NCBI GenBank assembly: GCA_947644325.1
Contig: CANRZD010000010.1
Span: 1 to 33,424, forward strand
Source: an uncultured Clostridia bacterium
GTDB taxonomy: Bacteria > Bacillota > Clostridia > Oscillospirales > Acutalibacteraceae
Direction: 5' to 3'
DNA length: 33,424 bases
Position numbers and translations under genes: made by a program
The notes under the pieces: model-generated
Database searches by the model: none
The model's input: only the letters and a program-made list of their open reading frames with translations
Told to the model about the DNA's origin: nothing
Shown: one piece after another, positions 6,002 to 33,424 of the stretch
Layout: each line of letters starts with the position of its first letter
Position numbering within the stretch: position 1 is the stretch's first letter

Positions 6002-6652
6002 TCACAAATTACCTGGGTTTTGCAAAAACCAAATGCCCGCGTACAAGGCTAAGTGCACCGGGTACAGGATGTACAATAGATACTTGGGGGCCCGCCGGCC
6101 CCGCTGGCCGTTATAAAAGAACAGGGGCACCGCCGCCAGCACCGCCCAAACCTGAAAGAGGCTATGGTGCTGGGCGCAGTAAAGCAGCGTCAGCGCCACA
6201 AGGCACAGAAGCCCCAGGGGCCGCTTCTCCCTAAAAACATAGAAGCACACACACAAGAGCACCCCGTAGGCCCCATAGCTGAGGCCCCCTATCTGGGCAA
6301 AAACCACCAGCCCCGCCGCCCCAAAGAGCCACGGCCCGCCCTTTTTCACGCACCACAGGACAAGTAAGCTCACAAACAGGGCAAACAGGATGTTTTTCAT
6401 CCCGAAACCCAGCTGCCGGTAGATCATCAGCTGGTAGGGCGCCTCTGACACCACCGCGAAGAAAAGAAGCCGCCCCAGGTATTTTTTTAGGTCCCGGGTG
6501 TGCACAAAGCCCTCGCTCAAGAGAAAGGCGAAGATGGGGAACGACAGCCGCCCCACCGCCCGCAGCACGGGTGCCCCGGGGAAGAAGCAGTATCCCAGGT
6601 GGTCAATGAGCATGGTGAAAAAGGCCAGCGCCTGCAGGCCCGCCGTTGTCAT
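6002..6652 (-). CDS. TraX family integral membrane protein
   Basis: 216 aa from the ATG at 6652 ([26 protein letters not shown]). The opening block with 'LK/QxxA...MxIDHxG' and the [29 protein letters not shown] segment are diagnostic of TraX (Pfam PF05857), as is the C-terminal [11 protein letters not shown]. About seven membrane helices are visible. F-plasmid TraX acetylates pilin, but chromosomal Firmicutes copies occur far from transfer genes and their role is unknown. No conjugation gene is in this window. The gene has its own SigA promoter and lies just before glyA. Confidence 0.85.
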
Positions 6653-6698
6653 GGTGAAAAGCCCCCCTTTCCCAAAATACCCCATACAGGGTAAAAAT

Positions 6699-6727
6699 AT
6701 TATGGCACATGGGCGCTCTCTTGTCAA
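6699..6727 (-). promoter_or_regulatory. Promoter of the TraX-like gene (and probably glyA)
   Basis: On the minus strand TTGACA (6727-6722) and CATAAT (6704-6699), spacer 17. Its -35 box overlaps that of the divergent nth promoter. Confidence 0.8.
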
Positions 6728-6749
6728 CGCCCGTTTTTTGTTGTAAAAT
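6721..6749 (+). promoter_or_regulatory. Promoter of nth
   Basis: TTGTCA (6721-6726), 17-bp spacer, TAAAAT (6744-6749). The -35 hexamer occupies the same bases as the -35 of the opposite promoter. Confidence 0.7.
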
Positions 6750-6783
6750 AGGGGAAAGTAAAAAAGAATCGAGGTTTTCCCCC

Positions 6784-7416
6784 ATGGATAAGAAAGAACG
6801 GGCCCTTCTCTGCGTAGAGGCCTTAAAGAAAGAGTACCCCGGGGCCGTGTGCTCCCTTACCTACACAGACCCCCTGCAGCTGCTCATCGCCACCCGGCTC
6901 TCGGCCCAGTGTACAGACGCCCGGGTAAACCAGGTGACCCCCGCCCTCTTTGCCCGCTTCCCCACTTTAGAAGCCTTCTGTGAGGGTACGGAGGAGGAGA
7001 TAAGCGGGCTTATCCGCTCCTGCGGCTTCTATAAGATCAAGTCAAAGGACATCTTAGCCGCCTGCCGCATGATACGGGACGACTTTGGCGGCAAAGTGCC
7101 CGACACCATAGAGGACCTCATAAAGCTTCCCGGCGTGGGCCGCAAGACCGCCAATCTCATCATCGGCGACATCTACCACAAGCCCGCCGTGGTGACGGAC
7201 ACCCACTTTATCCGCATCACCGGCCGCCTGGGGCTGACGGAAAACAAGGACCCCAAAAAGGTGGAGGACGACCTGCGGGCCCTTCTGCCCCCGGAGGAGT
7301 CAAACGACTTCTGCCACCGCACGGTGCTCCACGGCCGGGCCGTGTGCACCGCCCGCAAGGCCCATTGCGAAAGCTGCTGCATGGCCCCCTTCTGCTTGAC
7401 AAACGGCGTAAAGTAG
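6784..7416 (+). CDS. nth: Endonuclease III (Nth), DNA glycosylase/AP lyase
   Basis: 210 aa, full length. It removes oxidised pyrimidines and cleaves the abasic site. The helix-hairpin-helix LPGVGRKTANLI carries the catalytic lysine K121, and D139 in VVTDTHFIRITGRLGL is the second catalytic residue (E. coli K120 and D138). The [4Fe-4S] loop C-x6-C-x2-C-x5-C is intact (C188, C195, C198, C204). The start is the ATG at 6784, eight to nine bases after GAGG; the track's earlier start lies upstream of the promoter -10. The last codons contain the promoter of the next gene. Confidence 0.96.
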   Translation: MDKKERALLCVEALKKEYPGAVCSLTYTDPLQLLIATRLSAQCTDARVNQVTPALFARFPTLEAFCEGTEEEISGLIRSCGFYKIKSKDILAACRMIRDDFGGKVPDTIEDLIKLPGVGRKTANLIIGDIYHKPAVVTDTHFIRITGRLGLTENKDPKKVEDDLRALLPPEESNDFCHRTVLHGRAVCTARKAHCESCCMAPFCLTNGVK

Positions 7417-11823: not shown

Positions 11824-11976
11824 ATGAGCAACCAGAACCAGAACAATCAGAACAACAGCCAGAACAAGAGCCAGAATAAGCAGAACCAGAATAGCCAGAA
11901 CAACAAAAACCAGCAGAATCAGCAGAGCAAGAACCAGCAGGGCCAGAACAAGTACAGCCAGAACGACTACGAGTAA
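11824..11976 (+). CDS. Small Asn/Gln/Lys/Ser-rich protein, possibly spore-associated
   Basis: 50 aa: MSNQNQNNQNNSQNKSQNKQ, then more of the same, ending QNKYSQNDYE. It is nearly all N, Q, S and K, a low-complexity hydrophilic peptide with no cysteine and no membrane segment. AGAGGG lies upstream of the ATG and a strong terminator follows, which support a real gene. Similar Asn/Gln-rich small proteins occur in spore-formers, and gamma-type SASPs are also rich in N and Q, but the SASP repeat sequence is not present here. A sigma-G-like promoter upstream makes a spore role reasonable. Function unknown. Confidence 0.7.
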   Translation: MSNQNQNNQNNSQNKSQNKQNQNSQNNKNQQNQQSKNQQGQNKYSQNDYE

Positions 11977-32284: not shown

Positions 32285-33142
32285 TTATCTGTGATTTGCG
32301 CCCTTTACCAGGGCCAGGCAGCAGACGGCGGCGTACCCCGCCATGGCGATGGCCGAGGTCTCCGCCCCGAAGCTGCCGCCGGTGAGGAGGAGGGGGCCGT
32401 CGGGGATGATGAGAGAGAACACGGGGGAGCCGTAGGTCTCCCCGGCGGGGGTGATGTGCAGGAGGCTGGTGGCCATCACCAGGTTCCAGAGGGTGTGCAT
32501 CAGGACGCTGTTGCTCACCGAGCCGCTCCGGTCCGCCACCAGGGAGAACATGATCCCCACCAGGGAGCCGCCAAGCACCAGCAGCAGCACCTCCCCGGGG
32601 CCGGCGCTGCCCAGCTGGAACAGGTGGGCGGAGGCGAACAGCACCGAGGGCAGCAGGATGGCGGCCCGCTTTCCCCACCGCCAGTCCACCAGCTTCATCA
32701 GGAAGCCACGGAACAGCAGTTCCTCGGTGACGCCGGCCTTGAGGGCGAAGGCCAGGGAGACAGCCAGCGTCCCCAGCACCTCCCCCGGCCCGCCACGGGT
32801 GACCGAGACCTCCCCCAGGGGCAGAAAGGCGGCCGCCACAAGGACCGGGAGCAGCACCGAAGCCGCCACCGCCCAGCCCCGGAGGGAAAAGGTGACGCCG
32901 AACTCCGCCATCCCCAGCCGCAGCCCCCTGGCGGCATAGAGCCGGAACAGCGCCCAGGTGAGGGCCAGCGCCCCCAGGGCCCGGGGCAGCTGGTACAGCC
33001 AGGGGGCAGGGGGCCGGGCCACCGCGAAGAGCAGGTCGAGGGCCAAGGAGGAGAGCAGGTCCCCCGCCAGGAAAAGCAGCAGGCAGACCAGGATATGCCG
33101 GGCGGTGGCCGCCGTGGAAAAGGCCGGTTTTTGCTGGGACAT
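32285..33142 (-). CDS. CPBP family intramembrane glutamic protease (Abi-like)
   Basis: 285 aa from the ATG at 33142, with AAGGGGGT upstream. The protein has eight or so membrane helices. All three CPBP/Rce1 motifs are present: EE-x3-R (E140, E141, R145 in VTEELLFRGFL), FxxxH (H173 in FASAHL) and HxxxN (H216, N220 in HTLWN). Bacterial members are thought to process peptides at the membrane or protect against bacteriocins; the substrate here is unknown. It is the first gene of the CPBP-glpP-rarA-IMPase run. Confidence 0.92.
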   Translation of the reverse strand: MSQQKPAFSTAATARHILVCLLLFLAGDLLSSLALDLLFAVARPPAPWLYQLPRALGALALTWALFRLYAARGLRLGMAEFGVTFSLRGWAVAASVLLPVLVAAAFLPLGEVSVTRGGPGEVLGTLAVSLAFALKAGVTEELLFRGFLMKLVDWRWGKRAAILLPSVLFASAHLFQLGSAGPGEVLLLVLGGSLVGIMFSLVADRSGSVSNSVLMHTLWNLVMATSLLHITPAGETYGSPVFSLIIPDGPLLLTGGSFGAETSAIAMAGYAAVCCLALVKGANHR

Positions 33143-33170: not shown

Positions 33171-33199
33171 ATCATAGCACGGAACAGGTGGAAAATCAA
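33171..33199 (-). promoter_or_regulatory. Promoter of the CPBP-glpP-rarA-IMPase operon
   Basis: On the minus strand TTGATT (33199-33194), 17-bp spacer, TATGAT (33176-33171). The -35 lies at the very edge of the tandem repeat. Confidence 0.75.
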
Positions 33200-33424
33200 C
33201 CGGGCTGGCGCCCTCCGGGCAAGCGCCCGGGGGCGCGCCCTGCACGGCCTTTGGCCTTACCTTGTAGTAAATTTTTAGCCAGTGCCTGGAGTCTTGGGCT
33301 GATTTGGGGAAGATCGACCGGGCTGGCGCCCGGGGGCGCGCCCTACACGGCCTTCGGCCTTACCTTGTTGTAAATTTTTAGCCAGTGCCTGGAGTCTTGG
33401 GCTGATTTGGGGAAGATCGACCGG
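33199..33424. repeat. Tandem repeat array, unit 103-118 bp, running off the window
   Basis: Unit 1 is 33199-33316 (118 bp), unit 2 is 33317-33419 (103 bp), and the last five bases (ACCGG) begin a third. The units differ by a 15-bp block (TCCGGGCAAGCGCCC present only in unit 1) and three single-base changes; the half from GTAAATTTTTAGCC to AAGATCGACCGG is identical. Each unit contains GGCC(TTY)GGCC palindromes and a G/C-rich block GGGCTGGCGCCC. No ORF with a ribosome site is seen. It has no spacer-repeat form, so it is not CRISPR. Confidence 0.9.

Follow-up and report, generated by a model that had tools for sequence, protein, structure and literature searches.

Does the right-hand end of this contig carry a genuine tandem array and, if so, what kind of element is it and how many copies does it hold? 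The window, i.e. the whole stretch of DNA analysed, is 33,424 nucleotides long and makes up the entire contig C10 of a genome that is in 136 contigs, with an estimated completeness of 90% and an estimated contamination of 2.34%.

A tandem array at the right end of the contig

TRF detected an array at 33215-33424 with a period of 103, 95% matches and a score of 385. With the flanks included in the alignment, the copies have the starts listed in Table 1. The initial annotation, which was made from the sequence alone, had let the array run from 33199 to 33424; it does reach 33424 but its true start lies 9 bp further to the left.

Table 1. Coordinates of the array and of adjacent features in the window
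Feature	Position	Strand	Details	Basis
CPBP family (Rce1-like) membrane protease gene adjoining the array	32285..33142	-		
Predicted extended -10 promoter of the CPBP gene	33171..33199	-	TTGATT, 17-bp spacer, TG before TATGAT	
Repeat copy 1	33190..33307	.	118 bp, includes extra 15-bp segment	alignment with flanks
GC-rich imperfect palindrome in copy 1	33207..33239	.	hairpin of ~14 pairs, shorter in copy 2	folding and alignment
GCGCCC...GCGCCC direct repeat pair	33208..33228	.	flanks the 15-bp segment that copy 2 lacks	sequence and copy alignment
Repeat copy 2	33308..33410	.	103 bp	copy alignment
Terminal 55-mer, assembly-graph vertex where the contig stops	33370..33424	.	identical to 33267-33321	
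Repeat copy 3, initial 14 bp	33411..33424	.	identical to 33308-33321; truncated by contig end	

The alignment of copies 1 and 2 shows five substitutions between them, as well as one 15-bp segment that copy 2 lacks. Three of these substitutions and a 15-bp insertion had been described before, correctly so for the part of the array then considered; the two additional ones, 33194 and 33198 (A against G), are within the 9 bp to the left of it. Copy 2 corresponds to copy 1 minus one GCGCCC word and the sequence between the two words. The differences are confined to the left part of the unit, the last one being at position 33369, and the right-hand 41 bp are the same in both copies, an identity that could reflect constraint, or mere chance together with a recent origin.

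The longest exact direct repeat in the contig has a length of 55 bp, compared with 18 bp when the array is left out and 13-17 bp in 20 shuffles. Therefore, the array is not due to chance and, on the evidence of TRF, the copy alignment and this 55-bp repeat, it is real in the contig, as the initial annotation had held. No open frame crosses the array, stops being present in all six frames and 103 not being a multiple of 3, in agreement with the non-coding character that had been ascribed to it. Thus, the array comprises at least two highly similar units placed head to tail outside genes, i.e. the arrangement that defines an intergenic minisatellite. A CRISPR array was rejected: the entire 103-bp period repeats, and there are no unique spacers.

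The unit was found at a single locus

Contig searches and a profile search of 1.2 Mb detected the unit at no second locus in its own genome; profile hits at C80 and C19 had chance-level scores and were rejected as further copies. Similarly, no contig was found that would continue beyond the array, none of the genome's other contigs searched holding the unit. The unit was absent from the 28 other genomes of the genus that were searched, and it was not found in the family among 398 genomes searched including its own (about 390 others), collections that may leave out genomes very near to the source. Exact-pattern scans of GTDB contigs and viral contigs gave no unit, and blastn against phages and plasmids returned just matches of 27-31 bp to unrelated records. 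Family hits to 'AAGATCGACCGGGCTGGCGCC', at first sight conserved, were rejected as chance matches: the recurrent ones fall mostly within the coding frame of a single GTPase gene (NKIDR motif, TypA-like), and the others are scattered. A genome-wide search, which had been proposed as a check, thus ended at one locus with a unit that is not dispersed. A MIRU, REP or other dispersed repeat was rejected, C10 being the sole matching contig of the genome.

The array resembles a local minisatellite

The array looks like an ordinary local minisatellite that is specific to this locus. We consider it likely that it is a local intergenic minisatellite, which arose from slippage or unequal exchange and is close to neutral. 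Short direct repeats, through replication slippage or unequal exchange between them, would have given rise to the array upstream of the CPBP gene, and the 15-bp segment would have been lost from copy 2 by a slippage deletion between the GCGCCC direct repeats. A slippage deletion is proposed because the 15-bp difference is bounded by these direct repeats inside the hairpin; direct repeats inside a hairpin are the usual setting of slippage deletion. Presumably, three or more copies are present, and the effect on the adjacent CPBP promoter would be mild tuning at most. The array is probably near-neutral and its expandability is plausible.

Bacterial intergenic minisatellites or VNTR loci, as used in MLVA typing, share with the array near-identical, non-coding, head-to-tail units of ~100 bp, the location at one intergenic locus and an internal indel; however, VNTR loci vary in copy number between strains, whereas this array is known from one genome only. 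Should strains differ in copy number, the locus would be usable as a typing marker. Mycobacterial interspersed repetitive units (MIRU), termed minisatellites of M. tuberculosis in PMC3635867, are likewise tandem minisatellites between genes, a likeness that implies no sequence relation; MIRU are present at many loci per genome, in contrast to the one locus of the unit described here. Extragenic palindromes of the REP/BIME type are also GC-rich, imperfect and located between genes, but they are dispersed in genomes, whereas the unit of the array is not and its full palindrome is limited to copy 1.

The array lies upstream of a predicted CPBP promoter

Beyond the CPBP gene, further to the left, come glpP, for a glycerol-3-phosphate antiterminator, and a gene for a RarA/MgsA-type ATPase; glpP gave no synteny, as it had no match in the other genomes of the genus. 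The CPBP promoter pattern was found once, compared with 0.1 expected in shuffles, and its predicted -35 is located in the first 10 bp, i.e. at the left edge, of copy 1. Because the array is upstream of this predicted promoter, it would not be part of the CPBP leader RNA.

With the -35 so placed and the array continuing directly upstream, the array might be a cis-regulatory element, in which repeated binding sites upstream of the CPBP promoter let copy number set expression, and there are bacteria in which promoter repeat arrays tune expression. However, the TTGATT of copy 1 is TCGATC in copies 2 and 3, and the unit does not include the -10; moreover, a 103-bp unit is long for an operator, and no such unit lies near either the CPBP relative that is closest within the genus (44% identity) or a relative in the family (31%). 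Altogether, these observations make a cis-regulatory element improbable. If the array has a function, it might be tied to the right-hand gene, whose sequence lies past the contig end.

Folding of the individual copies

Copy 1 contains a strong GC-rich hairpin, part of which is lost in copy 2. On the minus strand, RNA folding of copy 1 was better than that of 197 of 200 shuffles (z -2.39) and, by inspection, the three interior substitutions amount to one in a loop, one G-C to G-U change and one at a stem end, both of which would suit units that serve as tandem genes for small RNAs or as structured untranslated elements. By contrast, copy 2 and a rotated frame folded with no excess over shuffles (z -0.10 and -0.56), and no terminator-like site was found in the array. 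Moreover, no Rfam family, membership of which is a covariance-model match at the gathering score, matched the array (best score 18.9 bits, with a lncRNA model; cut-off 50), and the genus and family genomes searched yielded no relatives for covariation. We consider such RNA genes or elements very unlikely. Similarly, the structured extragenic element suggested in the initial annotation was not supported: the palindrome is partly lost in copy 2, copy 1 has a folding excess on its minus strand only, Rfam gave no match and the genome holds no dispersed units.

A repeated 55-mer ends the contig and hides the copy number

The match between the terminal 55 bases and 33267-33321 is exact and extends no further. 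Among the contigs of the same genome (81 read, whole or in part), the ends of C1/C64 and of C51/C66 likewise share an overlap of exactly 55 bases, and end overlaps of this length are the mark of a de Bruijn graph assembly that uses k = 55. This is the largest default k of metaSPAdes. Thus, C10 stops where it does because a repeated 55-mer of the assembly graph is located there, and this 55-mer begins right after the point at which copies 1 and 2 last differ. In a toy graph with k = 55, unitigs ended at 33321 and 33424 for 2, 3, 4 and 6 copies alike, and the graph was passed unbroken only for two copies without further unit sequence after them. Therefore, the copy number is unreadable from the contig, and the underlying data extend by at least 14 bp into a third unit or into an equally long flanking direct repeat. 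In agreement with the earlier claim, the copy number is hidden by the end of the sequence inside the array, the cause being the repeated 55-mer. A short-read de Bruijn assembly (k = 55) would thus have failed to cross the array. More generally, short-read assemblies are expected to break at tandem arrays such as the one at this contig end, the visible copy count at such an end is set by the graph and caution is warranted; here, the k-mer length is deducible from the contig ends.

An end at an unresolved graph vertex, in a fragmented genome with 2.34% estimated contamination, would also be compatible with an assembly artefact in which two strain variants or two loci were joined via the shared 55-mer. 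However, with five differing sites and the 15 bp, the copies are not one sequence read twice, and in the toy graph the break itself requires unit-start sequence after the tail of copy 2, which leaves an artefact very unlikely. We also consider it very unlikely that an expandable array regulates the adjacent CPBP protease promoter through its copy number, acting as a slow, reversible expression switch.

Other repeats

At L121 (G000:C85), a 142-bp unit is present in 3.2 tandem copies at 6346-6804. The unit opens with the 5' part of a tRNA-Ala (GGGGGTATAGCTCAGCTGGGAG) and continues with an acceptor-stem complement (TATGCCCCC); an intact tRNA-Ala(GGC), at 6783-6858, comes directly downstream of the array. 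Rfam detected only the intact tRNA in this array, and single units folded no better than shuffles; related sequence of about 164-300 bp with 85-93% identity is present in five other genomes of the genus. At L129 (G373:C57), a 12-bp unit (TCCCTCGGCGCG) is repeated 11.6 times at 283-421, near a CPBP protease gene in a family relative. L059 (G000:C43) has GC-rich repeats at 1082-1611 whose periods (27, 36, 45 and 135 bp) are all divisible by 9 and which at the nucleotide level have a collagen-like look. Finally, TRF detected low-complexity repeats of the CAGAACCAGCAG type, with units of 12-15 bp, at 11830-11964 of the window.
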